From positions 1-31,022 of the IMG/VR virus record IMGVR_UViG_3300048551_000045: a DNA stretch of 31,022 nt. One strand, 5' to 3'. The notes under the pieces were generated by a model, which was given only the letters and a program-made list of their open reading frames with translations, had not been told where the DNA came from and did no database searches. The position numbers and the translations under genes were made by a program. Every line of letters begins with the position of its first letter. Position 1 is the stretch's first letter. Of this stretch, positions 15,877-31,022 are shown piece by piece. Origin of the DNA: a virus.

Positions 15877-15884
15877 GGTTTAAT

Positions 15885-16749: not shown

Positions 16750-17144
16750 GATTATTATTTACCCTTTGTTTTGTAGCTAGTTCTGCTGTAGCAGATAGTA
16801 GTTCCCTTTCATTAGCATTACCTAACCCACCTATGAACTACCAGTCGGACTCATTTTCCACTGGGAGTATGAGGTGTAGTAATGCTGTTGGTGGGGGTGT
16901 AAATCTTGAGTACGGTGTAACAGGTGTACTATCAGGTTTAGATACAAATAGCAGGGGTAAAGATATTGGCGTGTACGCTAGAATTGTTATACCTTTAGAT
17001 AAACCAAAGGCTCGTATAAACTGTGACGACCTATACCAAATAGAGTTAGCTCAACGTAGATTAGAGATACAGAAACTACGAGATGAACTAGAGCAACTAA
17101 AGAACCTACAAAGTTCTGGTGGTGAGATGGAGTTTGAGAACTAA
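16746..17144 (+). CDS. Exported protein with a C-terminal coiled coil
   Basis: The 132-residue protein has a signal peptide (R-L-L-F-T-L-C-F-V-A-S-S-A-V-A), then a mature domain with A-L-P-N-P-P, M-R-C-S-N-A-V-G-G-G, L-E-Y-G-V-T-G-V and D-I-G-V-Y-A-R-I-V-I-P-L, and a C-terminal helix (E-L-A-Q-R-R-L-E-I-Q-K-L-R-D-E-L-E-Q-L) with clear heptads. I recall this V-Y-A-R-I-V-I-P-L module from other marine phage genomes, without a known role. Cys in the signal peptide is not a lipobox. ATGA overlap upstream and TAATG downstream tie it to both neighbours. Confidence 0.62.
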   Translation: MRLLFTLCFVASSAVADSSSLSLALPNPPMNYQSDSFSTGSMRCSNAVGGGVNLEYGVTGVLSGLDTNSRGKDIGVYARIVIPLDKPKARINCDDLYQIELAQRRLEIQKLRDELEQLKNLQSSGGEMEFEN

Positions 17145-17653
17145 TGGATACTACTAAGATAGCAGACAACATTGATGGTCTAGCAGATCGTGAGTTTAAG
17201 ACAGGCGGTATGAAGGTATCATTTGGTTCTATCATGGCTATACTTGCTTTCCTATCTACTATTGTAGGTGGTTTGTATGGTGGCTTTGTGTTGTACCAGA
17301 AGATAGAATCAGTCGCTGGACTTGACCTAGAAGAATACCAACTACAAATGGACGTAATGGATGCCAAGGTAACTGGTATATCTGAGAAGGTAGAAGAGAG
17401 TGTAGAATACAGTCGTGATATTAAGAATGGACTTAGATCTGATATTCTTAGTATAGAGAAACAGACGGATCGTGTGGAAGACATGGTACGTGAAACAGAA
17501 GATAAAGTACGTAATATGATAGATGACGCTGAAGTAAGGTTTGAGAACCAAAGGGAACGTGTCAGAGTATCACAAAGTGGCTCGATGAAAGAACTCGAAG
17601 ATAAACTTATGGATAAATTACAAAGGGCGTTAGATAACCCCTTAGCAGATTAG
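17144..17653 (+). CDS. Membrane-anchored coiled-coil protein (i-spanin-like topology)
   Basis: The 169-residue protein has a 27-residue polar N-terminus, one strong membrane segment at about 28-52 (I-M-A-I-L-A-F-L-S-T-I-V-G-G-L-Y-G-G-F-V-L-Y), and then about 115 residues of charged helix with heptad spacing and K/R/E-rich repeats. This is the topology of inner-membrane spanins (Rz), and it lies upstream of the lysis genes. It is longer than typical Rz proteins, and no lipoprotein partner is encoded nearby or inside it as far as I can see. A structural or sensory role at the membrane is equally possible. Confidence 0.6.
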   Translation: MDTTKIADNIDGLADREFKTGGMKVSFGSIMAILAFLSTIVGGLYGGFVLYQKIESVAGLDLEEYQLQMDVMDAKVTGISEKVEESVEYSRDIKNGLRSDILSIEKQTDRVEDMVRETEDKVRNMIDDAEVRFENQRERVRVSQSGSMKELEDKLMDKLQRALDNPLAD

Positions 17654-17662
17654 GAGACTAAT

Positions 17663-17824
17663 ATGAATTGGATTAAAGATAGATTAAAAGAAAGAACTAC
17701 ATGGGACGGAGTTGCTCTATGTGGACTTGGAGTGATTGTAATACTATTACCTAACTCAATAGATAATATTGCCGCAGGTGTAGCTATCGCTTGGGGTGCA
17801 TGGACTACTCTTAAGAATGAGTGA
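17663..17824 (+). CDS. Small membrane protein, 53 residues, possible holin component
   Basis: The ATG at 17663 has the Shine-Dalgarno TAGGAG (17651-17656). The product starts N-W-I-K-D-R-L-K-E-R-T-T-W-D-G and then has two short hydrophobic stretches (V-A-L-C-G-L-G-V-I-V-I-L-L and A-A-G-V-A-I-A-W-G-A-W) before L-K-N-E. A short basic head with one or two membrane spans is compatible with a small holin or holin regulator; I recall similar W-I-K-D-R-L-K-E proteins in marine phage lysis regions. It overlaps the EF-hand gene by 8 bases (ATGAGTGA). Confidence 0.6.
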   Translation: MNWIKDRLKERTTWDGVALCGLGVIVILLPNSIDNIAAGVAIAWGAWTTLKNE

Positions 17825-18146
17825 ATTTGATAAAGTAGATAAAGATGGAAGTGGCACTATAGATAGATCAGAGTGGGAAGCACTTGAGCTAGAAGATAGA
17901 CGCAGACGACTAGATGATGAAGATGCACAAAGAGATGCACAAAGACGTATGGCATGGTTCTGTCTAACAGGTATGCTTGCTTATCCTTTTTGTGTCGTAT
18001 TAGCTAGTGCATTAGGATTAGATCAAGCGTCTTCTATTATAGGTTCTATGGCTTCCATCTACTTCCTATCAGTTGCTGGTATAGTTGGCGTATTCTTTGG
18101 CGTTACTAATATGAGCAAGAAAGAAGTGAAAGGTAATAACGGATAA
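17817..18146 (+). CDS. EF-hand membrane protein
   Basis: From ATG 17817 the product is 109 residues. Earlier in-frame codons to 17796 overlap the previous gene and are rejected. Near the N-terminus is a canonical EF-hand loop, D-K-D-G-S-G-T-I-D-R-S-E, with acidic or oxygen ligands at positions 1, 3, 5, 7, 9 and 12. A highly charged helix follows (E-D-R-R-R-R-L-D-D-E-D-A-Q-R-D), and then two membrane segments (about residues 48-66 and 76-96). The end is lysine-rich. It sits between a 53-residue membrane protein and the holin-like gene. Calcium binding is well supported by the loop; a role in timing or gating of lysis is speculation. Confidence 0.7.
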   Translation: MSEFDKVDKDGSGTIDRSEWEALELEDRRRRLDDEDAQRDAQRRMAWFCLTGMLAYPFCVVLASALGLDQASSIIGSMASIYFLSVAGIVGVFFGVTNMSKKEVKGNNG

Positions 18147-18502
18147 TGTTAGGACTAAACTTAATAGGTCAGGTAGCTAATTTAGCTGGTACTATGATCG
18201 AAGGTAAGACTGCTGTAAAGAAAGCAGAAGCTGAAACTAAGATGAAGATAGCTACAGGTGAGATCGACTGGGATATTGCCGCTATGAAAGCTACAGAGAA
18301 CTCGTGGAAAGACGAGTGGATAACTCTACTCTTTTCGATTCCGTTAATTCTAGCGTTTTGTGGAGACTGGGGTAATCAAATCGTACAGGATGGTTTTGCC
18401 GCTTTATCTAACATGCCAAGCTGGTATCAATATTCCCTCGGCGGTATTGTAAGTGCTAGTATTGGTATGCGTGGCGTAAGCAAATACTTTGGAAAGAAAT
18501 AA
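18146..18502 (+). CDS. Holin, three-membrane-segment (GTA_holin_3TM-like)
   Basis: The 118-residue protein has an amphipathic N-terminal region (K-T-A-V-K-K-A-E-A-E-T-K) and then S-W-K-D-E-W-I-T-L-L-F-S-I-P-L-I-L-A-F-C-G, with S-W-Y-Q-Y-S-L-G-G-I-V-S-A-S-I-G-M-R-G later. The S-W-K-D-E-W and P-x-W-Y-Q motifs, with two hydrophobic segments after them, are the pattern of the holin family first described for gene transfer agents. It is coupled upstream by TAATG and followed two bases later by the endolysin gene, the classic holin-lysin order. It would make the membrane lesion that releases the endolysin. Confidence 0.75.
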   Translation: MLGLNLIGQVANLAGTMIEGKTAVKKAEAETKMKIATGEIDWDIAAMKATENSWKDEWITLLFSIPLILAFCGDWGNQIVQDGFAALSNMPSWYQYSLGGIVSASIGMRGVSKYFGKK

Positions 18503-18504
18503 AC

Positions 18505-19020
18505 ATGAAGAACAACTTTGATAAGTGCCTAGAAATGTTATTACATCACGAAGGTGGATACGTTAATAACGTCCACGATAAAGGTGGGATGACTAATTTG
18601 GGAGTCACTAAGAGAGTGTACGACAAGTGGATTGGTAGAGAGTCTACTGAACAAGAAATGAGAGACTTAACTCCAGATGATGTAGCTCCTATCTATAAGA
18701 AGAACTACTGGGATCGTGTCAAAGGAGACATGCTACCTTCTGGTGTTGACTGGTGTGCATTTGATTGGGCTGTAAATAGTGGTTCTGGTCGCCCTGCTAA
18801 AGCTATACAAAGAGCAGTCGGGGCTACAGCAGATGGAGCTATAGGACCAAAGACGTTAGGTCTTATAATGGAGAAAGATCCCAAGTTTATAATTGATTAT
18901 GTATATACAGTACGTCAAGGCTTCTATGAAGGTCTAGATGATTACAAACACTTTGGTCGTGGATGGTCACGGCGTAACAAAGAAACATTAGAACAAGCTC
19001 TCAGCATGGTTGAAGAGTAA
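18505..19020 (+). CDS. Endolysin, glycoside hydrolase family 108
   Basis: The 171-residue protein has H-H-E-G-G-Y-V-N at residues 14-21. E16 of this E-G-G-Y motif is the catalytic acid in GH108 muramidases (TtsA/ZliS type). Next come K-G-G-M-T-N-L-G-V-T and Y-K-K-N-Y-W-D, the usual conserved stretches. The C-terminal part has A-I-Q-R-A-V-G-A-T-A-D-G-A-I-G-P-K-T, the small peptidoglycan-binding helix bundle joined to this family. There is no signal peptide, so release depends on the holin. It is the last gene of the late block and is followed 10 bases later by a strong terminator. Confidence 0.88.
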   Translation: MKNNFDKCLEMLLHHEGGYVNNVHDKGGMTNLGVTKRVYDKWIGRESTEQEMRDLTPDDVAPIYKKNYWDRVKGDMLPSGVDWCAFDWAVNSGSGRPAKAIQRAVGATADGAIGPKTLGLIMEKDPKFIIDYVYTVRQGFYEGLDDYKHFGRGWSRRNKETLEQALSMVEE

Positions 19021-19576: not shown

Positions 19577-19805
19577 TTTTACTTAAGTATTCCCTTAGTT
19601 CTGTATAGCCCCCAAGGTGAGTGCCATCTGGTTTAAATATTTGAGGTACTGTAGTATAGCCTGACTTACGCATTAAAGTCAACAGCCACTTACTGCTTGG
19701 AGACTGTACATTATATGTTGTTACCTGACTACCTGCGACACCCCTTAGTAGTTGTAAAGAGGCATCACAGAAGTTACATTGGTTTCTAGTTATTACTATC
19801 CACAT
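19569..19805 (-). CDS. Glutaredoxin-like protein
   Basis: The 78-residue protein has the thioredoxin-fold active site C-N-F-C at residues 10-13, the cis-Pro segment T-T-V-P-Q-I-F, and the end L-G-G-Y-T-E-L-R-E-Y-L, all as in small phage glutaredoxins. It starts within the stop of the reductase gene (TAATG), so the two are translated together. The likely role is to reduce the C-terminal Cys pair of the reductase so that each turnover can be repeated. The second active-site position differs from the common C-P-Y-C, as is frequent in phage proteins. Confidence 0.85.
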   Translation of the reverse strand: MWIVITRNQCNFCDASLQLLRGVAGSQVTTYNVQSPSSKWLLTLMRKSGYTTVPQIFKPDGTHLGGYTELREYLSKNG

Positions 19806-21715
19806 TAAACGAGATCTACAATCTCACAGCTATCCCCAGAACAAGCTAATGTCTGGCTACCTGCTGTGTTATCTTCTTGTTCATACTCTGACAGCTTAGA
19901 CCAATCAATAGCCTTGGGCATTACATCTAGAAGTATCTCATAAGTTGTCTCATCACAGTCTTGATAAGGTGCTTGTTGATACGTATGTTCATTGAATGGT
20001 AAGAACGAAACACCTGACATCTCATCAAAGTGTCTATACACGAATGCTCCTACTTCAAACCATTCGTCTTTCTTAACATTAATAGTCACACTAGGCTTAT
20101 GCTCACACCAACTACGTTGATAAGCTAACCACATCTCTAGTTGTTGTATAGCTGACATATCAGCAGTAACTGTTGCACCCTCTGGAGCTTTCATAGGGAA
20201 GCTAAACACTGTAGTTTGTTCTGGCTTCATTACGTCTGGCTCATTAGGTATACCTTGATCCATCATAAACTTTGTTAACGGGTCTTTGTTGTCTCCGCGT
20301 ACAGTGCGAATATAATAGGCTGAGTGACGAGCGTGAATCCCACTGCTAGAGTTAACCAGTTGGCTGACAGTACCGCTTGGTTTAACACAGCTGATAGCAG
20401 TACTGACAGGGATATCAAGGCGTTTAGCCCAAGTAGCATTAGTATCGACAGCGATCTGTTTGAGGTGTCCAAGAGTGTTCTCCAATCCTTTATTTGTAGT
20501 TGTCATTATAGGATTGTCCATGATACCTGTCATAGATACACCTAGTAGTCTTTCTTCTTCTGTATTCTTTTGCCATATCTTACGTAGGTATGGAAACTTA
20601 GTAAACGATGATTGTATAGTACCTAGTATTGTAGCTATTCTAACCTTACGTTCTAAGTCATCAACAGTATCTGTAGCACGTATAACTACTTCTGTTAAGT
20701 TACAGAATTGTGCTGGCCTCAAAATTATCTCACTGCAAGGATTCGTCCCGAACTCAAAGCTAGGATCTCGTCTACCATTCTTAGCCGCTTGCTTCTTAGA
20801 TGCTTCACGATTAAAGATACCACGTTCACCACTCCCACTTTCTACTAGAGCCATCCACTCACGCATAAACGACAAACTGTCTGGCTTCTCAGTATAAGAT
20901 ACAGAGTTGTTAGCTAATGCTCTTTGTGGATCGTTATCCCACCATGAACCTGACTTAGCATGTCTCATGCGATCATCTGATAAATTAGATAATGAGATCA
21001 TAGCAGACCTACGTACACCACCTACTACGACTACCTCACCTATCTTACACATAATATCGTGACACTCTAGAGATGATAGTCTACGTCCCTTAGCTTCTGT
21101 AAATACTTTAGTAACAAAGTTAAATAGGTCTATAAGAGGGGCTGGTCCAGATGCTCTACCACCAAAGGTCTTTAGCTTTGCACCTGCTGGTCTTACCTTA
21201 GATACATCCCACTTAGGTACTTCTCCGCTATACAACAATGCTATGAGTTGTCTTAGAGACTTAGCCCAACCTTCTTTACTGTCTTTTACAATAATAGTAG
21301 TATCACTGTTAAACATAGACTCAGGTATCTCAGGTAGTTTTTGTATAGACTGTCTCTCTACAGAGAACCCTACACCTGTACCACACAACAATATAAACAT
21401 AGCTTCGTCAAAGGCTTTAATATCATCTACAGCTAAGTAAGAGCAATTATAACCTGCTGTATTGTCGCGAGCCATAGCTGGACCAGCAGTCATAAGGGCG
21501 CGCATACTTGGGCAAACTTCTAGGTTTAGTATAGCTTCTTCTATCTCTGCTATCTGCTTAGGGTAATCTCCTAAAGCTGGCTTAACTAAGTTATCCATAT
21601 ACCTAGTTACTGTCTCTCCCCAAGACTCTCTTCTGCCTTCTGCTTCTAACCAACGAGCATAACGTGACTTGTGTATAAATGATTGGTAGTCTGTTGGTAA
21701 GTAGTTGTCACTCAT
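19805..21715 (-). CDS. nrdJ: Ribonucleoside-triphosphate reductase, class II (adenosylcobalamin-dependent), monomeric type
   Basis: The 636-residue enzyme converts ribonucleotides to deoxyribonucleotides with a B12 radical. Key residues are visible: N325-P-C327-S-E329 is the catalytic N-x-C-x-E set; C91 (G-Y-N-C-S-Y) and C338 (A-Q-F-C-N-L) form the redox pair; C625 and C630 (C-S-G-D-S-C) are the C-terminal shuttle. Spacing of C327 to C338 equals that of the Lactobacillus leichmannii enzyme (408 to 419), and both C-terminal pairs are C-x4-C. V-G-G-V-R-R-S-A and S-G-T-V-S-Q-L are typical. It is about 100 residues shorter than that enzyme. No intein is seen. It depends on host or imported B12. 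Confidence 0.93.
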   Translation of the reverse strand: MSDNYLPTDYQSFIHKSRYARWLEAEGRRESWGETVTRYMDNLVKPALGDYPKQIAEIEEAILNLEVCPSMRALMTAGPAMARDNTAGYNCSYLAVDDIKAFDEAMFILLCGTGVGFSVERQSIQKLPEIPESMFNSDTTIIVKDSKEGWAKSLRQLIALLYSGEVPKWDVSKVRPAGAKLKTFGGRASGPAPLIDLFNFVTKVFTEAKGRRLSSLECHDIMCKIGEVVVVGGVRRSAMISLSNLSDDRMRHAKSGSWWDNDPQRALANNSVSYTEKPDSLSFMREWMALVESGSGERGIFNREASKKQAAKNGRRDPSFEFGTNPCSEIILRPAQFCNLTEVVIRATDTVDDLERKVRIATILGTIQSSFTKFPYLRKIWQKNTEEERLLGVSMTGIMDNPIMTTTNKGLENTLGHLKQIAVDTNATWAKRLDIPVSTAISCVKPSGTVSQLVNSSSGIHARHSAYYIRTVRGDNKDPLTKFMMDQGIPNEPDVMKPEQTTVFSFPMKAPEGATVTADMSAIQQLEMWLAYQRSWCEHKPSVTINVKKDEWFEVGAFVYRHFDEMSGVSFLPFNEHTYQQAPYQDCDETTYEILLDVMPKAIDWSKLSEYEQEDNTAGSQTLACSGDSCEIVDLV

Positions 21716-21912
21716 TTCTTGCCGCCTCTTTCTTGTCTATCTTCTTTAAACCATATCATGCGATCTATGTCGCCACGAGTAAGACCTATATCTTTTAGTT
21801 CTCTATCAGTTAACCTATTTAGATGTTTGACTGCATCTCTGTGCATCTGCCATGTAATCATGTAATTGATAAACCTATACCACCATCTACCAAACGCTCT
21901 TAGTATCCTCAT
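21712..21912 (-). CDS. DUF1127 protein
   Basis: The 66-residue basic protein ends in the DUF1127 motif: L-N-R-L-T-D-R-E-L-K-D-I-G-L-T-R-G-D-I. In alphaproteobacteria and some enterobacteria, proteins of this family are small Arg-rich RNA-binding or stress-linked factors. The N-terminal half is rich in Trp and Arg (F-G-R-W-W-Y-R-F). Here it is coupled at both ends, ATGA with the reductase gene and a similar overlap with MazG. Its presence in a phage suggests an RNA-level or host-control function, but that is inference. Confidence 0.8.
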   Translation of the reverse strand: MRILRAFGRWWYRFINYMITWQMHRDAVKHLNRLTDRELKDIGLTRGDIDRMIWFKEDRQERGGKK

Positions 21913-22226
21913 CTATTATCTCCTGATCCTTTTATCTTATCTCTATTCTTACGGCTTGTTAGCTTCTCAATATTTATGTCAGCTATCTCATCTAAGTTAT
22001 AACCTATGTCATTAGCTAAGTTAGATAAGTACCACAGTACATCGCCTAATTCCTTCGCTACCTCATGTCGGTTAAATACACCATCTCTTACTTGCTTCTT
22101 AACCTTCTCAGCTACTTCCCCTGTCTCCCCACATAAACCTAAAGCAGGGTACAGAACCTTATGCGTTGCAGGGTATATAGCAAAGCTAACTGCTTTCTGT
22201 TGGTATTCTCTAAATCCTATTGTCAT
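21909..22226 (-). CDS. mazG: MazG-like nucleotide pyrophosphohydrolase
   Basis: The 105-residue protein shows the all-alpha NTP pyrophosphatase core: L-C-G-E-T-G-E-V-A-E-K-V-K-K gives the first metal-binding E-x-x-E, and K-E-L-G-D-V-L-W-Y-L-S gives the second E-x-x-D. The single-domain length is typical of phage MazG proteins. It may hydrolyse dNTPs or (p)ppGpp-like nucleotides and so adjust host metabolism. It is set in the nucleotide operon between a methyltransferase and DUF1127, and coupled to both by 4-base overlaps. Confidence 0.87.
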   Translation of the reverse strand: MTIGFREYQQKAVSFAIYPATHKVLYPALGLCGETGEVAEKVKKQVRDGVFNRHEVAKELGDVLWYLSNLANDIGYNLDEIADINIEKLTSRKNRDKIKGSGDNR

Positions 22227-22768
22227 ACTGTTCTTCCATAAAATTCTGTTGGTTTCATATCTTCTTTATAAGCGTCAAACAAGTACCAACAACAGTTGTC
22301 CTTACCTACACCCTTACTTCCTTCTATCCACTTAACACGACCTATTGATACAACCTTAGAACAATAAGTCATAAATAAAGCTGACTGCTTAGTGTGCATC
22401 CAATCAGCATCAAACAATAACCAAGTAGGACAGATACCTAACCAATGATCTATCAGTGGATGTAATATCTTTCTGTCCCATGGGGGGTTGGTTATCATAT
22501 AGTCCATTACTCCATACCCACCAAAGTCAAGATTAAGAGCATTAGAAGTAAATATGTCGGTATGTCTTGGCTCAATGTCACTAGCATATATACACTCTCC
22601 TGTACCTTGAGTTAGTTTATTTATGTGCCTTATTAAGCGTCCGTCACCAGCACAAGGCTCTACGTAATCAAATGCGTAGGGTAAATGGTACACAAGAGGC
22701 TCTACAGCTTCTATGGGTGTTGGGTAGTAGTCTCTGGGTATTCTCTCAAAGTCACTACGTTTACCCAT
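22223..22768 (-). CDS. SAM-dependent DNA methyltransferase-like protein (N-P-P-W type)
   Basis: The 181-residue protein has Y-Y-P-T-P near the start, a SAM-binding motif V-E-P-C-A-G-D-G-R-L at about residues 36-45, Y-A-S-D-I-E-P as the acidic second motif, and the catalytic M-I-T-N-P-P-W-D at about 90-97. N-P-P-W/Y is characteristic of amino-methyltransferases that modify adenine or cytosine in DNA. No restriction partner is nearby, so it is probably a solitary phage enzyme for self-protection or regulation. The target base and site cannot be read from the sequence. It overlaps the phosphoesterase gene by 8 bases. Confidence 0.78.
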   Translation of the reverse strand: MGKRSDFERIPRDYYPTPIEAVEPLVYHLPYAFDYVEPCAGDGRLIRHINKLTQGTGECIYASDIEPRHTDIFTSNALNLDFGGYGVMDYMITNPPWDRKILHPLIDHWLGICPTWLLFDADWMHTKQSALFMTYCSKVVSIGRVKWIEGSKGVGKDNCCWYLFDAYKEDMKPTEFYGRTV

Positions 22769-23525
22769 ACAACTCCTTTAACCTCTTTAACGACACAAAC
22801 TCTGGCTCATACATACCATTGTCTATCTCACGTTTGATTACTACACCCTTCCACCAATCAAGATTAGACTGACCTGCCCAACCTTCTTCAGCACCCTTAA
22901 AGCAACCTGCTACAAGTCCTATAGCTTTAGCTCCATCCTTAAACTTTAGATCACGTTTATGACTGTGGCCACAGGTAGAGCTTGTATATCTGTGACCTAA
23001 CAGAGTATTAGCGTGGTGTAATCCAGACACAGCAGAACCGAAGTTACCTGCTTGGAAGAAGTGAGCATATGATACACCATCATATTCTGCTATAGATGGT
23101 CCTGAGTTTCTGTATTCGTGGTAGTCGTCGAACCAGTGGTCTGTTTGAAGATGCCCAAAGGATATCCCGTATTTGTCTCCCTCAAGTCTGGGATCACTTT
23201 TGAGTGCCTTCTTAATCCTGTTTTCGTGGTTGCCTTCGAAGCCAATCCATCTGGGTCTTTTGTACTTTCGTTGACTGGGCTTTTGTCTAAGCCTATCCAT
23301 AGATTCATTGTAATGTTCGATATCTTGTTCATAGCTCTGACTGACAATAGCTTCAGGACTCCTAGTATCAAAACTATTGAGAGAACGCATATCAGCACCA
23401 TCACCAAGGTCGATGATATAGTTGGGGTTAACATCATATATTAATTCTCCTAGCCAATCAAATCTTTCGTTACTTGTAGTAGGGTCTGCGTGGGCGCAAC
23501 TAAATACAACTGCTGTCTTAGACAT
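22761..23525 (-). CDS. Calcineurin-like metallophosphoesterase
   Basis: I take ATG 23525, which has AAGGA seven bases upstream; ATG 23531 in the same frame lies directly behind that site, too close. The 254-residue product carries all metal-binding motifs in order: S-C-A-H-A-D near residue 10, D-L-G-D-G-A-D, E-G-N-H-E-N-R, a Y-A-H-F-F segment and C-G-H-S-H-K. The first motif has C in place of the usual D (D-x-H becomes C-x-H), so one metal ligand may be changed. The substrate is unknown: nucleic acid ends or cyclic nucleotides are possible. The gene lies between endonuclease I and methyltransferase. Confidence 0.8.
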   Translation of the reverse strand: MSKTAVVFSCAHADPTTSNERFDWLGELIYDVNPNYIIDLGDGADMRSLNSFDTRSPEAIVSQSYEQDIEHYNESMDRLRQKPSQRKYKRPRWIGFEGNHENRIKKALKSDPRLEGDKYGISFGHLQTDHWFDDYHEYRNSGPSIAEYDGVSYAHFFQAGNFGSAVSGLHHANTLLGHRYTSSTCGHSHKRDLKFKDGAKAIGLVAGCFKGAEEGWAGQSNLDWWKGVVIKREIDNGMYEPEFVSLKRLKELYG

Positions 23526-23748
23526 ATTCATTTCCTTCGTGGGGTATATTTATAACTATAGGATCTATAGTAGATAAAAAGTAGGATTGGAATTTATAGG
23601 CGGCATCAAAGTTAATAAAAGGTATATCGTCTTGAAACATCTCCTTAGCTTCTACATCTTCTACACTGCATGTTAACCACCAATTACCTTCTGGGCATTG
23701 AAATGGTCCGCTGATTACTCTGTGTACATGATAAGTTATTTGATCCAT
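23518..23748 (-). CDS. Unknown small protein
   Basis: I do not recognise this 76-residue protein. It is acidic, with Y-H-V-H-R-V-I-S-G-P-F near the start, a Trp pair (N-W-W-L-T-C), and a possible helix with F-D-A-A-Y-K-F-Q-S-Y-F. There is no signal peptide or membrane segment. It overlaps endonuclease I by 13 bases and the phosphoesterase by 8, and its coding frame fits the operon, so it is accepted as a gene. Confidence 0.6.
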   Translation of the reverse strand: MDQITYHVHRVISGPFQCPEGNWWLTCSVEDVEAKEMFQDDIPFINFDAAYKFQSYFLSTIDPIVINIPHEGNEYV

Positions 23749-24134
23749 TCGTCGGGTATCCTTTTGTCTGCATATAGAAAGTTATTCTTCTCGCACCACA
23801 TAGCATATGTAGTCTTAGATCCTTTACGAATCTTATTCTTACTGTTGCTGAATACAAACCTTATGTCAAGGTCAGGGTTTTGTTCTCTAACCTTAAGGTG
23901 CTTCTTCCTGTCGTCTGGAACAAACCTTCCTTTTGATTCAATTATGATACCATTGGGTAGTATAAAGTCAGGGGTGTAAGTCTTGTTCTCTACTAACTTC
24001 CAGTTTATCTTAACTGTCTCGTAGCCAAAGTCTACACCCCTGTCCTTGAGGTCTTTCGATATGACATCCTCAAGCCCAGAACGATAACCATTCTTTATCG
24101 CCTGTTGTCGGATCTTACTTTTGGTGGTTGCCAT
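23736..24134 (-). CDS. Endonuclease I, T7 gp3-like Holliday junction resolvase
   Basis: The 132-residue protein has the four catalytic residues of T7 endonuclease I in near identical positions: E22 (R-S-G-L-E-D), D56 (Y-T-P-D-F), E66 and K68 (I-I-E-S-K-G), against E20, D55, E65 and K67 in T7. The stretch D-I-R-F-V-F-S-N, then K-G-S-K-T-T-Y-A-M-W-C, and the end I-P-D-E-W are also conserved. The enzyme resolves branched DNA during replication and packaging. It overlaps the exonuclease gene by 40 bases, which is long and suggests the exonuclease stop region and this start evolved together. Confidence 0.93.
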   Translation of the reverse strand: MATTKSKIRQQAIKNGYRSGLEDVISKDLKDRGVDFGYETVKINWKLVENKTYTPDFILPNGIIIESKGRFVPDDRKKHLKVREQNPDLDIRFVFSNSKNKIRKGSKTTYAMWCEKNNFLYADKRIPDEWIK

Positions 24135-24814
24135 ATCTCTTCCTCTTCTCTCCTAAGCCATAACAGCCTAGCGTTTTCTATTACTCTATCCTGATTTCCA
24201 TCGTAGGCTTTAACGACACAATCCCAGAGATCTTCTTCTGTCTCTGCATCTTCTAGTATCTTCTTAGCTTTGACTGGACCAACACGAAACAGACCTACTA
24301 TATTGTCTGCTGTATCTCCTGTTAGTATCTGAGTATAGAAGAACTTAATTCCCCCGAAGGGGGTTACTTCTAGATAATCGCCTCTAACCATGTTAAAGTG
24401 CCAACAGGGTAACTGTAGCATGTCTTTATCTATAGAGGCTACACAAGCCTTGTAGTCTAGTCTGGCGGCTTCTTTAGCAATGAGGTCATCGGCTTCCTCT
24501 CCTTTACTTATGATTGCTTGATACTTGCTTTCCATGTGATCTCTAGCGGTCTGCAAGTGTCTAGGTTTCTGAACGCTTTTTCTATTTCCCTTGTAGGGGT
24601 AGGACTTAGCTATATCATCTCTGAAGTTACCTTTACCTGTAAGGTACACAGAATAATCTAAACCTATCTCTGGAAATAATACGGTGCTATCTAAAATGAA
24701 TTCTATGAGGTCATCAACTTTATCTCTTGTGTCTTGTGACCCCATCTGTTCAGTGGAGAAGGCCGCACGATAAGCAATTATGTCTCCATCGATTAGAACC
24801 TTCCCCATATCCAT
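24095..24814 (-). CDS. 5'-3' exonuclease, T7 gp6-like (FEN family)
   Basis: The 239-residue protein has the flap nuclease motifs in order: L-I-D-G-D-I-I-A-Y-R-A at the start, Y-P-Y-K-G-N-R-K, then E-E-A-D-D-L-I-A, S-I-D-K-D-M-L-Q, and T-G-D-T-A-D-N-I-V-G-L with G-P-V-K-A-K-K-I-L (helix-hairpin-helix). These Asp and Glu residues bind the metal ions. It would remove RNA primers and help degrade host DNA, working with endonuclease I. The start is ATG 24814, overlapping the previous stop by one base; ATG 24808 is an alternative. It is shorter than T7 gp6 (about 300), as in several marine relatives. Confidence 0.9.
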   Translation of the reverse strand: MDMGKVLIDGDIIAYRAAFSTEQMGSQDTRDKVDDLIEFILDSTVLFPEIGLDYSVYLTGKGNFRDDIAKSYPYKGNRKSVQKPRHLQTARDHMESKYQAIISKGEEADDLIAKEAARLDYKACVASIDKDMLQLPCWHFNMVRGDYLEVTPFGGIKFFYTQILTGDTADNIVGLFRVGPVKAKKILEDAETEEDLWDCVVKAYDGNQDRVIENARLLWLRREEEEIWQPPKVRSDNRR

Positions 24815-25015
24815 TTAAGTGTCACCCCACATCATTTCACCATCTTCGCACTCGAAACCTACAGACTTAACATAGGTGAAACCAAAAGCATGTGCGGCTT
24901 CAGCAAAGAGTTGAGCTAACTCATGGGCTTCTGTAATATCGTCCCTACTCATATCAACGCTTCCGCTGTAACCATCATCATCTTTTTCCATGTACGCATT
25001 AACACTTACTCTCAT
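24815..25015 (-). CDS. Unknown small acidic protein
   Basis: This 66-residue protein is not recognised. It begins with a strand R-V-S-V-N-A-Y-M-E-K-D-D-D-G and has a helix H-E-L-A-Q-L-F-A-E-A-A-H-A-F-G-F-T-Y-V, then an acidic end (E-C-E-D-G-E). The overall beta-alpha-beta pattern is plausible for a small folded protein. It sits nine bases downstream of the ssDNA-binding protein gene and overlaps the exonuclease start, so it is part of the replication operon. Confidence 0.6.
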   Translation of the reverse strand: MRVSVNAYMEKDDDGYSGSVDMSRDDITEAHELAQLFAEAAHAFGFTYVKSVGFECEDGEMMWGDT

Positions 25016-25024
25016 AGTCTTTCC

Positions 25025-25573
25025 TTATACAATAAATAGCTCATCATCTTCTGTGATAGCATTGTTTTCTTCATATGGTACGTGATCTGTTACACCTACA
25101 TTTAGTAGACGAACACCTGCACCTTGAGCATAAACCTCAAACTGAACTTTAGCTTTAGTACCATTACCTAAAGCACCATCCTCAGAGAAGCTCCATAGTC
25201 TTTTCTTCTCTCTTCCTTCAGTTAAGTTTACCACTGTAGGTGCGCCACCATAGTCTATTGTAACAGGCTCTCCATTACGATCAGTAAAGTTTTTTACATC
25301 AGAGATCTTACGTTTTATCTTCATGTACTTACCTATACCAAGGTCTGCATTACCTTGCCTTATCCTATCACTATTCATAGGATGTAAGTCTAAACCCTCT
25401 TTCTCTAGGTGTCCTATCTGTGCTTCTTCAGTAAAGTAAGCGTTGGTAATATACTGCCCACCTTGACTGTGTACTGCTTGTGCGGCGCGTGGTCCATCTG
25501 CACTTCCCATATCCGCATTTTCTGGAAATACTTTCGCATATTCTAGTATCATATCCATTGTGTATTTAGCCAT
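25025..25573 (-). CDS. Single-stranded DNA-binding protein, T7 gp2.5-like
   Basis: The 182-residue protein matches the gp2.5 type in length, position and its acidic C-terminal tail: the last residues are E-D-D-E-L-F-I-V, and the acidic tail with a terminal aromatic is the docking site for polymerase and helicase. The middle shows strands of an OB-like fold (V-T-I-D-Y-G-G-A, V-Q-F-E-V-Y-A-Q-G-A-G-V-R-L). A Shine-Dalgarno AAGGA lies 9 bases before the start. A 38-bp promoter-like element (25595-25632) lies just upstream, so this gene opens a new transcript. Confidence 0.72.
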   Translation of the reverse strand: MAKYTMDMILEYAKVFPENADMGSADGPRAAQAVHSQGGQYITNAYFTEEAQIGHLEKEGLDLHPMNSDRIRQGNADLGIGKYMKIKRKISDVKNFTDRNGEPVTIDYGGAPTVVNLTEGREKKRLWSFSEDGALGNGTKAKVQFEVYAQGAGVRLLNVGVTDHVPYEENNAITEDDELFIV

Positions 25574-25594
25574 GTCGAGTTCCTTTCGGCTGTT

Positions 25595-25632
25595 GGTACT
25601 TATATATAATGTCCTTTTTGGACAAAGTGTAA
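25595..25632 (-). promoter_or_regulatory. Promoter-like element before the ssDNA-binding protein gene (copy 1)
   Basis: Read on the minus strand, this 38-bp segment starts TTACACTTTG, contains TGTCC-AAAAA-GGACA (a 5-bp inverted repeat), and then TATATATAAG as a -10-like box, followed by the gene 20 bases later. It aligns without gaps to 29696-29733 with 30 of 38 bases identical. The spacing of TTACAC to the TATA box is 18 bases in both copies. The likely role is a promoter for the leftward block, read by host RNA polymerase or with the phage sigma-like protein. The gap 25574-25650 holds no other feature. Confidence 0.65.
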
Positions 25633-25650
25633 AGTAAATATAAAAATAAA

Positions 25651-27486
25651 TTAGTGTATGTCTGCGTAGGTCTTACCGAACTGTGCATCTACACCTAATG
25701 GTACATTGAGTTCTAACTTTTGATTAAGGTTTTCAATAGCTTGCTCCATTGTAGTTTTTGTTTGCTCTTCGTTACCTTCTGGTACGAGTGCGATGATTTC
25801 GTCGTGGAATTGTCCGATGGTTTTAATTCCGTAGCGACGACATAAAGATACCCAACTGTCAAAACAAAATACTCCTGTTCCTTGATTTAATGTAGAGAAC
25901 TTATCCTTGTCACTACGTAAGCTGTACCAGAAGTTTGATACAGGATTCAGTAGCCACATAGACCCAAATAAGTCTCTTGTACGTGCTGTATTAGCTACCT
26001 TATCTACTGACCAATTACGTGACCAGAAGGCTTCTAGCAATACTGTAGCCTCTTCTTTACTCATGCCTGTATTACGTGACAAAGTAGAAGATCCTACACC
26101 ATACGTAGCACTATAGTTTACTACTTTATAGTTCTTACGTAGGGCTGATAGGGATCTCTCTCCACTGTTATGTTTGTCGATGTCCTCTTGTGTAATTATA
26201 CCTGCATGTTTAGCTAAGTCTAAGTGTGGATCAAAGCCTTCTTTAGACATCTCCTCTACGTAGTCAGGGTCTAATGGCTTCATGTAGTGACGCTTAGTTG
26301 TATCCTCTAGTGAGGTCATGTCAGCACCACATAATGTATATCCATCTGGACAAGTCAAACAACCTCTTATCTCTTTACCATACGGCTTATCTACAGCAGG
26401 TAAGTTAACGAGAGGCTTGGCATGTTTAAACCTAAGAGTATTAGTTAGACCTGCTATGTTAGCCTGTACGTATCCATCTACTTGTGCATTAACCATAGCT
26501 TTGATAACACCTATACGATGAGACAATACAGATAGACCATCAAGTAAGTTTATAGCAGGTTCTTTATCTGCTAGTGCTTTTACTGATCTACACAACTCTG
26601 CATCCTTACGTACTTGTTCTAGCTTTCTAGTGTCGCCTGTAACCTTATCACGTAAGAACTTATATGTACGTGGTTGCCAACCTAACGAGAATAACCAGTC
26701 CTTAACTTGATCTGTACTGTTAGGGTTAGCTCTTTCTTCACCTACCTTAACTGTAAGAGATTGTGTAGACTGTGGTTGTTTCTGCTCTTTACATAGTGCT
26801 ACCCACTTCTCTCCATTAGATGATAACGACCCATCCTTCTTGTGCATAACTTTAGGTTTGTTACGTACTGCTGTAACAATCTTACGTGGCATAGCATCAG
26901 CAAGTAATTCAGTCTTCTCAGCCTTTAGGCTTTCCCATGTAGCCAGATAATCTTCTGCTTTACTTACGTCCAATTTCCACTGTAGGGACTCTTGCTCTTT
27001 AGCGCACTCCATCTTGAATGTCATATAGTCAATAAGTCTATCCCTATTTCCACTGTCGGGGTATAGCTTGTCTAACTTTATACTTAGGTCACGCCACAGT
27101 CTTACGTTGATCCTTACATCTTCTTCACACCTGTATTGATATTCTTCTGGACTTAAGTTCTTCCAGTCATTGATCTCAGGTTTAGGTACACCATACATCT
27201 CACCATACTGTGCTAGTCCATGCTTTTGTAAGTGGTGGTTTATGTACCAAGCTAGAGGTAAGGTATCTATAATCCTAGCGTCTACTTTTATGTCTAGGAT
27301 CTTTTCCACTACAGGTATATCATACCTAACTATGTTGTGACCTATAAGTGTGTCAGCGTTAAGAAAGAATGTTCTCATCTCTTCATAGTCAAAGGTAGAT
27401 TGTATCTGACCCTCTTCATTTGTGTAAGATACTACGTGTATCTTTGTGGGGTTGAACCCATCTGTTTCTATATCAAATACTGGCAT
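25651..27486 (-). CDS. DNA polymerase, family A, with 3'-5' exonuclease (T7-like)
   Basis: The 611-residue enzyme has the exonuclease motifs F-D5-I-E7-T-D, G-H-N-I-V-R-Y-D56 and Y-R-C-E-E-D123, all catalytic residues present as in T7 polymerase. The polymerase part has motif A (G-A-D389-M-T-S-L-E), motif B (R-K-N-Y-K454-V-V-N-Y458) and motif C (F-H561-D562-E563). The residue at the position of E. coli Phe762 is Tyr458, as in T7. It is smaller than T7 gp5 (704). Start ATG 27486 forms TAATG with the HNH gene. A thioredoxin-binding loop cannot be identified by eye. Confidence 0.95.
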   Translation of the reverse strand: MPVFDIETDGFNPTKIHVVSYTNEEGQIQSTFDYEEMRTFFLNADTLIGHNIVRYDIPVVEKILDIKVDARIIDTLPLAWYINHHLQKHGLAQYGEMYGVPKPEINDWKNLSPEEYQYRCEEDVRINVRLWRDLSIKLDKLYPDSGNRDRLIDYMTFKMECAKEQESLQWKLDVSKAEDYLATWESLKAEKTELLADAMPRKIVTAVRNKPKVMHKKDGSLSSNGEKWVALCKEQKQPQSTQSLTVKVGEERANPNSTDQVKDWLFSLGWQPRTYKFLRDKVTGDTRKLEQVRKDAELCRSVKALADKEPAINLLDGLSVLSHRIGVIKAMVNAQVDGYVQANIAGLTNTLRFKHAKPLVNLPAVDKPYGKEIRGCLTCPDGYTLCGADMTSLEDTTKRHYMKPLDPDYVEEMSKEGFDPHLDLAKHAGIITQEDIDKHNSGERSLSALRKNYKVVNYSATYGVGSSTLSRNTGMSKEEATVLLEAFWSRNWSVDKVANTARTRDLFGSMWLLNPVSNFWYSLRSDKDKFSTLNQGTGVFCFDSWVSLCRRYGIKTIGQFHDEIIALVPEGNEEQTKTTMEQAIENLNQKLELNVPLGVDAQFGKTYADIH

Positions 27487-28049
27487 TACAGTAATCCTAA
27501 CTCTTTGTTTGTTTTTGCGTACTCCCTTTCAAGAGGGGTTAGGTTTTCTTCTAACCACTTATCATATAGCACTGCGGCTTCTTTCTCAGTTTTACTCACT
27601 CCTATGTAAAACTGTTTACCATTTACAGATGTCATAGCTCTATATGCTCCATAATTATTTATATAAACACCTTTATATTTTGAAGCTGACCCCTTCCTTG
27701 GCTTTTGATTTTTTAAGTTAAGTGCGTTTGTAGTAGGCCTCAAGTTTTCTATCCTGTTATCTACCCTGTTTCCGTTTATGTGATCTAGCATACTAGGTAC
27801 TTCTCCATAGTTAAGAAACCAAACAATTCTGTGCGCTCTATAATTATGCCTATCACCTTTAACAGAATAATTTGCAATATTTAAGTATCCATTACTAAGT
27901 GTACCTGCCACACTACCTGCGGCTCTTATTTTATTATTAGTACTACTTGCACACCCTTTCCAAATAAGATCACCAGTCTCAGGTACATAAGATAAGTTGT
28001 CTGTAATCCACTGTTTTTCTTCTTTACTCCACTCTCTTGATTCAGCCAT
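27486..28049 (-). CDS. HNH homing endonuclease with AP2 domain
   Basis: The 187-residue protein has an HNH-3 domain: H-R-I-V-W-F-L-N-Y-G then M-L-D-H-I-N-G-N-R-V-D-N-R-I-E-N-L-R at about residues 75-105, where D-H-x-N-G and the N-R-x-x-N-L-R motif carry catalysis. An AP2-like DNA-binding domain follows (S-K-Y-K-G-V-Y, G-K-Q-F-Y-I-G, A-A-V-L-Y-D-K-W). This is the standard phage homing endonuclease type. It is free-standing between helicase and polymerase genes, and both junctions are TAATG, so the neighbours stay translationally coupled. It is probably a mobile element in its own right. Confidence 0.92.
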   Translation of the reverse strand: MAESREWSKEEKQWITDNLSYVPETGDLIWKGCASSTNNKIRAAGSVAGTLSNGYLNIANYSVKGDRHNYRAHRIVWFLNYGEVPSMLDHINGNRVDNRIENLRPTTNALNLKNQKPRKGSASKYKGVYINNYGAYRAMTSVNGKQFYIGVSKTEKEAAVLYDKWLEENLTPLEREYAKTNKELGLL

Positions 28050-29632
28050 TATAATATCTCCCTTAACATAAATGTATCTAAGTTAAATGCTAACTTACCT
28101 GCTTGTCCTTCTTCTGAACAAGGTCGGTTCTTCTCTACTTTTAGGTAAGTCGTGTTACGTTCTTCCATATTGTCAGCTTCCTTATCTCTGTGTAGGTCTA
28201 TGATAACAGATGCACGTTGACCTATCATCTTACAGTACTTTGGATCGCCATTCTCATTAGTGTGAGCAATGGTTACAATCCCTACGTTTAACTCTGCCGC
28301 TAACTTGGATAGCCTGATAGACAGGTCAGCTAACATAGCTTCTTTACTTTCTTCTGATGTACCTACAACTACGTCTTGTATAGGCTCAAAGAAAACAAAC
28401 TTACAGTCACAAGCCTGACTAAAGAATCTTATCTGATCTATTAGTTCGTCTGTACCTTGACCATCGCCTAAGTAGAATTGATAGAAGTTCTCATCTTTAG
28501 TTAAGTTACCTATAGCTTCACGCACAAGGCCATCAGCTTCCTTCTGTTCTATCAGGTCACGTCTTGTCAGGTTGTCACCTACCTCATACGACACAAGCCC
28601 TAGTAGTGACCTTAATTTAGTCTCTTCTAAGTGCCATGCGGCAATAGGTATACCTTGCTTTAGCATACTGTATTCCATGTATCTCATAAGCTCAGTCTTA
28701 CCTATACCTGTAGGTGCTTTAAATACTGTGAAGTGTCCTTGCATAAGACCTAAGATCTTATCATCTAATGCTACAATACCTGTAGGGTAGTAGACGTGTT
28801 CTGGTGTATCCTCATACAACTTAAGGAACTGGTCAGCAGTATTCAGTATGTTCTCTGGTGTATGCTTGACTGGCTTCCACCATAGGTTCTTAAAGTCTGC
28901 ACCTTTACCTGCCTGTAAAAAATCATTGGCATCTTTATATTCACCATGTTGCATACGATAGATCTTATTAGGAAACAATCTAGCCATACGATCAGCTAAA
29001 GCATTACCTGCCTCATCATTATCTACTGACAGTATAATCTTCTCGAAGCTACCTAACCAGTCCTTACAGTTCTCCCATAGCTTCTTAGATGGTGTAGCTG
29101 AAGGCAACGACACAACAGGGTTAGTATACTGGCTCTTAAGCATCTGTGAAGCTGATAGAGCGTCTAGTTCACCTTCTGTTATTGTAACCATCTTACTACA
29201 ACCAGCAGGGTATAGGTTCATACCAAATAGTTCATCACCTTTGAAACCATCTTTAGCATAGAAAGCCTTCTCATCTAGCTTACGTACCTTAATTCCCCCA
29301 GAGGGGTATATGTACTCTTGTCTATCGTCATACGTTAGTACGTTATAATCTTTCATTGTACCTAACATAATCCCACGTAGGGGGGTGTAATCGCCTTCTG
29401 ATCTGTCTTCAATTTTCTTAGGTGTAAACTCTGTTACGTTCATATAGTCACTTTCTTTCTTTGTCGGGTATTTATCTTTTGCCCAAGTGTGCATCTCTTG
29501 TCTTGAGGGATAACCACTTCCACAAGAATGACACTTACCAAATCCTTTGGTGTTATATGAGAACGCATTGCTAGAGCCACACGACACATAAGGACAAGGT
29601 TGATGTATTATATCTTGATATACTATAGTCAT
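28049..29632 (-). CDS. Primase-helicase, T7 gp4-like
   Basis: The 527-residue protein has a zinc-binding N-terminus (C13-P-Y-V-S-C18 and C34-H-S-C37), a TOPRIM primase core (E-G-E-L-D-A-L-S at about 150 and S-V-D-N-D-E-A-G at about 200-207), and a RecA-like hexameric helicase with Walker A A-P-T-G-I-G-K-T at about 305-312. F-V-F-F-E-P-I is the Walker B region, and A-H-T-N and Q-R-A-S-V-I are later helicase motifs. It primes and unwinds at the fork with the polymerase and ssDNA-binding protein. T7 gp4 is 566, so the length fits a complete bifunctional enzyme. A promoter-like element lies upstream. Confidence 0.94.
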   Translation of the reverse strand: MTIVYQDIIHQPCPYVSCGSSNAFSYNTKGFGKCHSCGSGYPSRQEMHTWAKDKYPTKKESDYMNVTEFTPKKIEDRSEGDYTPLRGIMLGTMKDYNVLTYDDRQEYIYPSGGIKVRKLDEKAFYAKDGFKGDELFGMNLYPAGCSKMVTITEGELDALSASQMLKSQYTNPVVSLPSATPSKKLWENCKDWLGSFEKIILSVDNDEAGNALADRMARLFPNKIYRMQHGEYKDANDFLQAGKGADFKNLWWKPVKHTPENILNTADQFLKLYEDTPEHVYYPTGIVALDDKILGLMQGHFTVFKAPTGIGKTELMRYMEYSMLKQGIPIAAWHLEETKLRSLLGLVSYEVGDNLTRRDLIEQKEADGLVREAIGNLTKDENFYQFYLGDGQGTDELIDQIRFFSQACDCKFVFFEPIQDVVVGTSEESKEAMLADLSIRLSKLAAELNVGIVTIAHTNENGDPKYCKMIGQRASVIIDLHRDKEADNMEERNTTYLKVEKNRPCSEEGQAGKLAFNLDTFMLREIL

Positions 29633-29666
29633 ACTTACGTTTCTTTCTATTAGTAATTATATTATT

Positions 29667-29678
29667 AAGTTATAACTT
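29667..29678. promoter_or_regulatory. 12-bp perfect palindrome, possible operator
   Basis: AAGTTATAACTT is a perfect inverted repeat about 35 bases before the helicase start, in an AT-rich leader. A TATAAT-like box at 29656-29661 with TTAACG 18 bases upstream overlaps it as an alternative weaker promoter. A repressor site in the leader of the replication operon is plausible but unproven. Confidence 0.35.
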
Positions 29679-29695
29679 ACGTTAATACTTAAGTA

Positions 29696-29733
29696 GGCAT
29701 TTATCTATAATGTCTTTTTAAGTTAAAGTGTAA
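29696..29733 (-). promoter_or_regulatory. Promoter-like element before the primase-helicase gene (copy 2)
   Basis: On the minus strand this reads TTACACTTTAACTTAAAAAG, then ACATTATAGATAA. It shares 30 of 38 bases, without gaps, with 25595-25632, including TTACACTTT, the A-run and ACATTATA. The start of the element lies inside the last codons of the sigma-like gene. A leader of about 65 bases would separate it from the helicase start. Confidence 0.65.
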
Positions 29734-30226
29734 TATCACAAATTGTTACAAGTTTGTCACGAATGTCATTTCTCATAGTATTTAAGTGCATACGAGACAT
29801 ACCTAACGCTTTAGATGCTTCTGTTATGTTATTGTTATTATTATACAAAACTAGAAATACCTTCCACTCTCTGTCGCTTAGTTCTTTCTTTAATGTTTCT
29901 ATAGAATCTTTTAGCTCATACGACCCAAACAAATCGTCAGCAGGTATTTGTGCCTCATCTGGTTCTACATAAACTGTAGTATCTGTTACAGCCGCATCAC
30001 GACCAAACCTACCTTTTGGGTAGCTAAGTTTAGACAGACTTACATTTACGTATTCATACATGACTGTTCGCGCGCTATAATACAATTTAGGTGGGTCAGT
30101 GATACCTTCTGCTCTCATCTTTAAGCATAGCACTACACCCTCAGAAACTATATCATCATAGTCCTGATGGTTATAATACTTACTAGCTAGTCTTCTACAC
30201 ATATCTAGTATGTCTTGGTTGTTCAT
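29723..30226 (-). CDS. Sigma factor-like regulator
   Basis: The 167-residue protein has an N-terminal part that resembles sigma region 2 (Y-Y-N-H-Q-D-Y-D-D-I-V-S-E-G-V-V-L-C-L) and a C-terminal helix-turn-helix like sigma region 4 (L-S-D-R-E-W-K-V-F-L-V-L-Y, then I-T-E-A-S-K-A-L-G-M-S-R-M-H-L). Between helices lies a run of five Asn. Region 2 is short and the promoter-melting residues are not obvious, so it may be a degenerate sigma factor or an ECF-like activator. Its own coding end holds copy 2 of the duplicated element. A role in directing host polymerase to phage promoters is inferred. Confidence 0.62.
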   Translation of the reverse strand: MNNQDILDMCRRLASKYYNHQDYDDIVSEGVVLCLKMRAEGITDPPKLYYSARTVMYEYVNVSLSKLSYPKGRFGRDAAVTDTTVYVEPDEAQIPADDLFGSYELKDSIETLKKELSDREWKVFLVLYNNNNNITEASKALGMSRMHLNTMRNDIRDKLVTICDITL

Positions 30227-30393
30227 AAGAATAGACCAGTCATATATAACATTGCCTTAACTAATACGAAAGAAAATCCTATAAACGAGAATCCTATCAT
30301 AGTAAAAAATAAAATACTTATGTACTTAGCTACTCTTAGTTCTTCTTGTTTCATCTTATCTGTCCTATAATATGGTTTATAATCTTTACTCAT
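30223..30393 (-). CDS. Small membrane protein, 56 residues
   Basis: ATG 30393 has GGAG seven bases upstream. The product begins S-K-D-Y-K-P-Y-Y-R-T-D-K-M-K-Q-E-E-L and has a long hydrophobic stretch Y-I-S-I-L-F-F-T-M-I-G-F-S-F-I-G-F-S-F-V-L-V, probably one or two membrane spans, ending in G-L-F-L. ATG 30354 in the same frame is an alternative with its own AGGA. The end overlaps the sigma-like gene as ATGA. Function unknown. Confidence 0.6.
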   Translation of the reverse strand: MSKDYKPYYRTDKMKQEELRVAKYISILFFTMIGFSFIGFSFVLVKAMLYMTGLFL

Positions 30394-30562
30394 TCTTCAA
30401 CTCCATTTCGATAGTGTTAATCTTAAAGCCGCAAATTAAACATTTCTTATAGCGTTTTATACTAGGGAATCCTCTTCCGTGGTATTCTCTTGTATCAGTT
30501 ACTTTAAGTTTATTCTTATAACCTTTAGTTAAGCAATCAGGGCAATAGAATACCTGCCTCAT
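30386..30562 (-). CDS. NrdR-like zinc-ribbon protein without ATP-cone
   Basis: The 58-residue protein has C7-P-D-C10 and C41-L-I-C44-G. Between and after them it has K-V-T-D-T-R-E, S-I-K-R-Y-K-K and K-I-N-T-I-E. This order matches the N-terminal DNA-binding zinc ribbon of the bacterial repressor NrdR (C-P-x-C, V-I-D-S-R, S-x-R-R-R-R-x-C-x-x-C, F-T-T-x-E). NrdR proteins of about 150 residues add an ATP-cone that senses nucleotides; here the gene ends after the ribbon. It has AGGAG upstream and overlaps the next gene by 8 bases. It could control transcription of reductase genes, phage or host, or be a zinc-ribbon protein of other use. Confidence 0.68.
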   Translation of the reverse strand: MRQVFYCPDCLTKGYKNKLKVTDTREYHGRGFPSIKRYKKCLICGFKINTIEMELKNE

Positions 30563-30717
30563 TCTTCTTTATCTCCTATGTTGTATTTCTGGTGTACTAT
30601 ATCTCTCTTCAAATTACCTGCTTCTAAAACAGGATCTTTAGAATACATAATATCATTTAGTATACCCATTACGTCACTCGCAAGTATAAAGTCACCATGT
30701 AGTTTTATCTTTGTCAT
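30559..30717 (-). CDS. Unknown small protein, 52 residues
   Basis: The product has T-K-I-K-L-H-G-D-F-I-L-A-S-D-V-M-G-I-L-N-D-I-M, then a charged helix-rich end with K-Y-N-I-G-D-K-E-E. It looks soluble. It starts within the previous stop (TAATG at 30717) and ends four bases into the zinc-ribbon start (ATGA), so it belongs to a coupled series. No family recognised. Confidence 0.58.
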   Translation of the reverse strand: MTKIKLHGDFILASDVMGILNDIMYSKDPVLEAGNLKRDIVHQKYNIGDKEE

Positions 30718-30884
30718 TAGAACATTACCTCTCCATCTATTATTAGTGTGTTATGCCAAGCTATAGTCTCGGCTCTTAGTGCATAGAAGCCTGTCTGCTC
30801 TGCTACACTCTCAAGTTCTTCTATATCACTCTTGAGTATGCCTAGCTCCATAAGCTCCATTTCCATCGAAGGGGGTAGAGGCAT
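30717..30884 (-). CDS. Unknown small protein, 55 residues
   Basis: The product begins M-P-L-P-P-S and is largely one acidic helix (E-M-E-L-M-E-L-G-I-L-K-S-D-I-E-E-L-E-S-V-A-E-Q), followed by A-E-T-I-A-W-H-N-T-L-I-I-D-G-E. It is bounded by TAATG junctions at both ends and preceded by GAGG. A small coiled-coil or adaptor protein is compatible. No family recognised. Confidence 0.57.
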   Translation of the reverse strand: MPLPPSMEMELMELGILKSDIEELESVAEQTGFYALRAETIAWHNTLIIDGEVMF

Positions 30885-31022
30885 TATACCTCAGTCCCTA
30901 ACCCAAAGATACGACGACCACCTGCTACAAAACCTAGCACACGATCCACATTAAAGCACTTGTAGCCTTGCTTAGTCTTGAGTGTGATGTAACCAGCTTT
31001 GCGTAGTGCTTCAGCCGCTATA
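30884..31022 (-). CDS. Partial gene at the right edge, unknown
   Basis: The frame is open to the window end, so only the C-terminal 45 residues are visible: A-A-E-A-L-R-K-A-G-Y-I-T-L, then Q-G-Y-K-C-F-N-V-D-R-V-L and G-R-R-I-F-G-L-G-T-E-V. A helix and two strands are suggested, somewhat like a winged-helix end, but this is too little for a family. The stop forms TAATG with the next gene. Confidence 0.5.
   Translation of the reverse strand, partial: IAAEALRKAGYITLKTKQGYKCFNVDRVLGFVAGGRRIFGLGTEV

Follow-up and report, generated by a model that had tools for sequence, protein, structure and literature searches.

A phage protein of 58 residues assigned to the NrdR-type zinc ribbons, and its possible role as a DNA-binding regulator of changed specificity

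NrdR has been described as a two-domain sensor-repressor. In the structure of NrdR bound to DNA, residues D15 and R17 read bases, and residues R12, R26-R29 and R37 hold phosphates (PMC9110341). In the Streptomyces coelicolor protein, the R17A substitution abolishes DNA binding and the D15A substitution loosens its specificity (PMC9110341). NrdR ribbons dimerise through the strand formed by residues 39-45, with the participation of R27, R29 and E42 (PMC12176259). The affinity of the E. coli protein for a single NrdR box is 530-1000 times lower than for a box pair, and tight binding needs two boxes at once (PMC12051234). Several phage lineages carry the ribbon alone, and a literature search, essentially of open-access papers, found none that describes such phage proteins. 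Here, we analyze one of them, from a marine phage, in the IMG/VR virus record IMGVR_UViG_3300048551_000045, whose positions 1 to 31,022 form the 31,022-nt stretch of DNA that we call the window.

The open reading frame at 30386-30562 on the minus strand translates into 58 amino acids (MRQVFYCPDCLTKGYKNKLKVTDTREYHGRGFPSIKRYKKCLICGFKINTIEMELKNE) and overlaps both of its neighbors by 4-8 nt each. Nineteen other IMG/VR contigs carry the gene with 88-100% identity. Within a subtype, dN ranges from 0 to 0.07 and dS from 0.16 to 0.58, and therefore the frame is a real, translated gene under purifying selection. A first-pass annotation, made from the letters of the window, had pointed to two CxxC pairs (C7/C10 and C41/C44), a V21-x-D23-T24-R25 element and an S34-I-K-R-Y-K-K40 stretch; all of them are found in the translation as described. 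The parts of the gene and its surroundings are:

30386-30562, minus strand: stand-alone zinc ribbon of putative NrdR type, 58 residues (translation, profile, predicted fold, selection and shuffles)
30533-30544, minus strand: first CxxC knuckle, C7-P-D-C10 (direct reading; cysteines invariant in the alignment)
30488-30496, minus strand: D23-T24-R25, aligned with D15/R17, the pair through which NrdR reads bases; HTE, HTQ or YTK in orthologues (NrdR roles from PMC9110341)
30443-30457, minus strand: basic strip K36-R37-Y38-K39-K40, aligned counterpart of NrdR R26-R29 and the next residue (NrdR roles from PMC9110341)
30431-30442, minus strand: second CxxC knuckle, C41-L-I-C44 (direct reading; cysteines invariant in the alignment)
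30404-30424, minus strand: residues 47-53, predicted to form the third strand; T50 and E52 are invariant, and the strand corresponds to the one by which NrdR ribbons dimerise, E52 to its E42 (AlphaFold2 strand; dimer role from PMC12176259)
30223-30393, minus strand: downstream overlapping frame, 56 residues, hydrophobic, probably membrane-spanning, not an ATP-cone
30559-30717, minus strand: upstream overlapping frame, 52 residues, variable between relatives
29723-30226, minus strand: next early gene, 167 residues, weakly similar to sigma-70 region 4, variable
19805-21715, minus strand: class II (B12-dependent) ribonucleotide reductase (RNR), about 8.7 kb downstream of the ribbon gene, listed for context only

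The neighboring genes have characteristics of their own. The 56-residue protein is conserved, matches no family and probably crosses the membrane once. The sigma-70 region 4-like protein is 65-83% identical between relatives, compared to 86-97% for most of its neighbors, and its variation is out of step with the type of ribbon. Promoter and terminator scans around the ribbon gene returned scores at about the level of shuffled sequences, and a search near the gene for repeats that could serve as its own operator returned a single short palindrome, at 29892-29911, inside the neighboring gene.

We compared the 58-residue protein with known families by profile and by predicted fold. Its sole match in Pfam-A is Zn_ribbon_NrdR (PF22811), with an E-value of 2.1e-5 and a score of 24.8 bits, just below the curated cut-off of 27.2 bits; a sibling allele (contig L018) lies above the cut-off at 28.5 bits, and the HTE and HTQ types score between 13.6 and 15.8 bits. 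A profile of 20 phage ribbons aligned by hhalign to alphaproteobacterial NrdR with a probability of 97.9 and an E-value of 5.7e-13, and NrdR entries ranked first in a profile search of the PDB (E-values from 1e-4 to 1e-3). The AlphaFold2 model (pLDDT 84.8) contains strands at residues 18-27, 34-41 and 47-53, and its top 12 Foldseek matches are all NrdR, with E-values of 0.015 to 0.18 that are weak because the domain is tiny. Against an NrdR-ribbon profile, the real protein scores 24.4 bits and the best shuffle 15.0 bits; none of 2000 shuffles with fixed cysteines reached the real score, which rules out a match by chance or composition. Profile and predicted fold thus agree in assigning the window protein to the NrdR-type ribbon superfamily, with a borderline score on the Pfam cut-off, and the kinship that the first-pass annotation had proposed from motifs is borne out by these comparisons, which favor no other zinc-ribbon family.

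The protein itself is not an NrdR. It is 58 residues long, compared to 140-220 residues for NrdR, and neither its frame nor the next one (56 residues) contains an ATP-cone, the dATP-sensing domain whose absence had already been recognized. The NCBIfam model of full-length NrdR, TIGR00244, with an equivalog threshold of at least 124.65 bits, scores 13.9 bits on the window protein and matches only the ribbon part. What the protein shares with the NrdR ribbon (PF22811; structures 7p37, 9fxk, 9fvr and 9gex) is the two CxxC knuckles, the predicted three-strand ribbon, the basic strip before the third cysteine, and a threonine and a glutamate on the dimer strand; the D-x-R pair for base reading is shared by the window allele as well. 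In contrast, the stretch between its knuckles is longer, and a tyrosine occupies the position of NrdR R28, both here and in most window-type alleles.

The alignment pairs K20 of the window protein with R12 of NrdR, D23 with D15, R25 with R17, K36-R37-Y38-K39 with R26-R29, K47 with R37 and E52 with E42. Consequently, the window protein has both base-reading residues, basic residues at five of the six phosphate contacts, and the dimer residues. The phosphate-contact strip, RRRR in NrdR, becomes K-R-Y-K in the window and K/R-R-R-K in the other alleles. Common to all subtypes, in window numbering, are the four cysteines, K18, I35, R37, T50 and E52, together with a basic residue at the position of NrdR R26.

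The base-reading positions divide the orthologues found at this locus into allelic types: DTR (the window type), HTE, HTQ and YTK. The HTE and HTQ types are 58-63% identical to the window ribbon, and the YTK type is 64% identical; the D/R pair of NrdR is therefore not kept across the group. In the HTE and HTQ types, the counterpart of NrdR R37 is lost (isoleucine), and the counterpart of NrdR R27, the basic residue at the R26 position, K39 and E52 are kept; an HTQ member has the same predicted fold. The HTQ contig L111 is nearly identical to the window in its RNR (96%), primase-helicase (97%), endonuclease (99%) and exonuclease (93%), but only 58% identical in its ribbon. Conversely, the DTR contig L008 has a ribbon that is 97% identical to the window's and a primase-helicase that is 89% identical. 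The type of ribbon therefore cross-cuts the genome background, a pattern to be expected if alleles have been exchanged. Because R17A abolishes DNA binding, one would not expect the HTE and HTQ alleles to bind canonical NrdR boxes and, by transfer from the S. coelicolor protein, occupancy of these boxes is unlikely to be a function common to the ribbon family.

The ribbon gene lies in an early-type block on the minus strand, together with genes for the sigma-70 region 4-like protein, a primase-helicase, a DNA polymerase, an exonuclease, endonuclease I, MazG and the class II RNR. The window's RNR shares 83% identity with the one from Lentibacter phage ICBM2, the primase-helicase comes nearest to that of Roseobacter phage CRP-6 (87%), and tape-measure and tail-fiber J families are found among the virion genes; this combination suggests a mosaic roseophage whose replication genes are CRP-6-like. 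In the literature, CRP-6 has itself been called highly mosaic (PMC6918029). The two strands of the window differ in kind: the tape-measure and tail-fiber J families, of siphophage type, lie within 1-19020 on the plus strand, and a CRP-6/cobavirus-like replication module occupies 19805-31022 on the minus strand. Between the primase-helicase and polymerase genes, a homing-endonuclease-like gene with HNH and AP2 domains (27486-28049, minus strand) has no match in relatives L008, L109 and L111 or in CRP-6, and is therefore probably a recent insertion. On contig L035, small early frames at 6493-6636 and 7915-8115 have two CxxC pairs, like CRP-6 gp03, and this early block seems to hold mini zinc proteins of several different kinds.

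The first-pass annotation had tied the ribbon to the phage's own reductase. The reductase is real, and four longer contigs of the window's phage group carry both genes. However, CRP-6, the nearest cultured phage, has an RNR (78% identity), its first 15.5 kb contain no ribbon, and a tblastn search of all phage records returned no CRP-6 match. Conversely, the complete records of CRP-901, Ssp-JY39, RcZahn, Montmirail and ctuI7215 contain ribbons above the Pfam cut-off and no RNR. Each gene occurs without the other, and therefore we rejected their association as a rule.

Stand-alone NrdR-type ribbons are found in at least five phage groups: the window's group, Roseobacter phages CRP-901/902, Synechococcus phages Ssp-JY39/Yong-M2-251, Rhodobacter phage RcZahn (gp96) and Blautia phage Montmirail (WAK79239). 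Like the window protein, the ribbons of the latter four groups have no ATP-cone in their frames; unlike it, they belong to other phage groups, they are about 36-45% identical to it where aligned, and their base-reading positions are DSR, ESR or DSE. Those that were scanned score 34-51 bits against PF22811, above the cut-off. A further stand-alone ribbon occurs at an Aquamicrobium locus (L089) with phage-like neighbors, and another alphaproteobacterial genome (L108) has a version of 96 residues. These stand-alone ribbons are either unannotated or labeled 'hypothetical' or 'Ogr/Delta-like'. For example, CRP-901 has an unannotated NrdR-like ribbon gene of 65 residues between CRP901_gp02 and gp03 (L021 14977-15171; 678-872 of the record, minus strand). 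RcZahn gp96 (L083 2477-2692), an NrdR-type ribbon by its score of 39 bits, is annotated as Ogr/Delta-like and overlaps a ThyX gene, a possible link to nucleotide metabolism in a phage without an RNR.

Other small phage zinc proteins are more distant. The Ogr/Delta (PF04606) and Com (PF10122) regulators resemble the window protein in being small phage zinc proteins, but neither model matches it even at an E-value of 10. The PBS1 gp142 / AR9 'transcriptional regulator' gives a weak tblastn match through its zinc knuckles; it differs by its length of 122 residues, its second half with an apparent C-terminal helix-turn-helix, and its lack of the NrdR ribbon pattern, and we take it to be MqsA-like. 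LOKG_00077 of Loktanella phage pCB2051-A was dropped as a relative, as it has no match to PF22811.

We then consider the DNA sites. We scanned for the NrdR box with a weighted acaCwAtATaTwGtgt pattern, using weights that we set ourselves, for single boxes and for pairs spaced by 30-33 and 40-43 bp, and compared the scores with those of shuffled dinucleotide blocks. Nothing scored above the shuffles in the window, in CRP-901, in the early region of ICBM2 or in six relatives, where the window is a fragment that may miss the early promoter region. The best box pair in the window scores 33, compared to a shuffle mean of 34.6; the same scan gives the E. coli nrdHIEF pair, as a control, a score of 40 that was reached by 0 of 100 shuffles.

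According to our preferred reading, to which we give a rough probability of 0.45, the free-standing NrdR-type ribbon is a homodimeric, DNA-binding early regulator whose specificity has changed and which acts on phage or host promoters. A single zinc would be held by the two CxxC knuckles within a ribbon of three beta-strands, the basic strip would contact DNA phosphates, and the edge strand would pair ribbon with ribbon. The homodimer would then bind DNA as a small early regulator, with a sequence preference shifted away from the NrdR box, either altered or relaxed, and differing between the allelic types of close relatives. We infer zinc binding, dimerization, DNA binding, changed specificity and the regulatory role itself from kinship to NrdR, the conserved residues, purifying selection, the allelic types and the absence of box pairs, all of which support this reading. 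The gene is probably a repurposed small regulator and not a stand-in for NrdR. There is evidence in the opposite direction: the tyrosine at the R28 position in most window-type alleles and the loss of the NrdR R37 counterpart in the HTE and HTQ types weaken the DNA-contact face, and the same conserved residues would equally serve a heterodimer with the host's NrdR.

Such a heterodimer is the basis of the main rival explanation, which we consider possible but doubtful. The edge strand and the salt bridges of R27, R29 and E42 would join the phage ribbon to that of host NrdR, yielding tetramers that are blind to the box and derepressing the host's RNR genes. NrdR ribbons do form dimers (PMC12176259); the counterparts of dimer residues (R37, K39, E52 and T50 in window numbering) are kept in all alleles of the group while the base-reading residues vary; and ribbons in phages without an RNR would be accounted for. 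The partner would usually be present, as PF22811 matches occur in 95 of the 115 Alphaproteobacteria genomes sampled and almost all of them lie in frames as long as NrdR, so that hosts usually have NrdR. However, homodimerization would conserve the same residues, and a pure decoy would have no need for the strongly basic strip that is retained. Alternatively, the NrdR fold may have been reused to bind a protein during host takeover, for example RNA polymerase or another host factor, with DNA binding lost. The early position beside the sigma-70 region 4-like gene is consistent with this proposal, and the sharp allelic variation next to conserved neighbors resembles that of host-interaction genes. 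We nevertheless judge it unlikely: the basic strip and R37 of the window protein are conserved, and the protein matches neither Ogr/Delta nor Com nor any other zinc-finger family.

Even less probable, in our estimate, is that the ribbon sits on NrdR boxes all the time and represses, or competes at, RNR promoters of the host or the phage, as the first-pass annotation had suggested. In favor of this idea, the window allele retains the D/R pair that reads bases in NrdR, and five of the six positions that contact phosphates there are basic. But close relatives have H/E, H/Q or Y/K in place of the D/R pair in the orthologous ribbon encoded at this locus, and the loss of R17 abolishes binding (PMC9110341); box pairs are found neither in the window nor in its relatives, although the scan recovers the E. 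coli control; and the ribbon and the RNR occur independently, the nearest isolate, CRP-6, having an RNR and no ribbon that we could find. A lone ribbon dimer could not span two NrdR boxes, and the 530- to 1000-fold weaker binding of full NrdR to a single box (PMC12051234) speaks against a lone ribbon occupying boxes strongly and constitutively.

More generally, we tentatively suggest that cone-less phage ribbons are trans-dominant inhibitors of host NrdR, or else regulators of switched specificity, whose allelic types, which differ at the base-reading positions, pass between close relatives. If true, phages would have a route to unlock or rewire the host's control of dNTPs without carrying the sensor, and the phage ribbons also bear on the question of whether phages undermine the way in which hosts regulate their dNTP supply. 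The base-reading swaps at one locus among near-identical genomes offer natural variants for testing ribbon specificity and NrdR oligomerization.

Full-length NrdR was also encountered in phage records: of 19 records with a match, 18 span most of the protein. They are mostly unannotated contigs that may be host DNA, and hence we do not take them as evidence. In a Chloroflexi metagenome-assembled genome, a full-length NrdR (L090 4001-4462) apparently has a residue other than arginine at the R17 position (KVLDTTHDS) and an intact RRRR strip; its boxes may differ.
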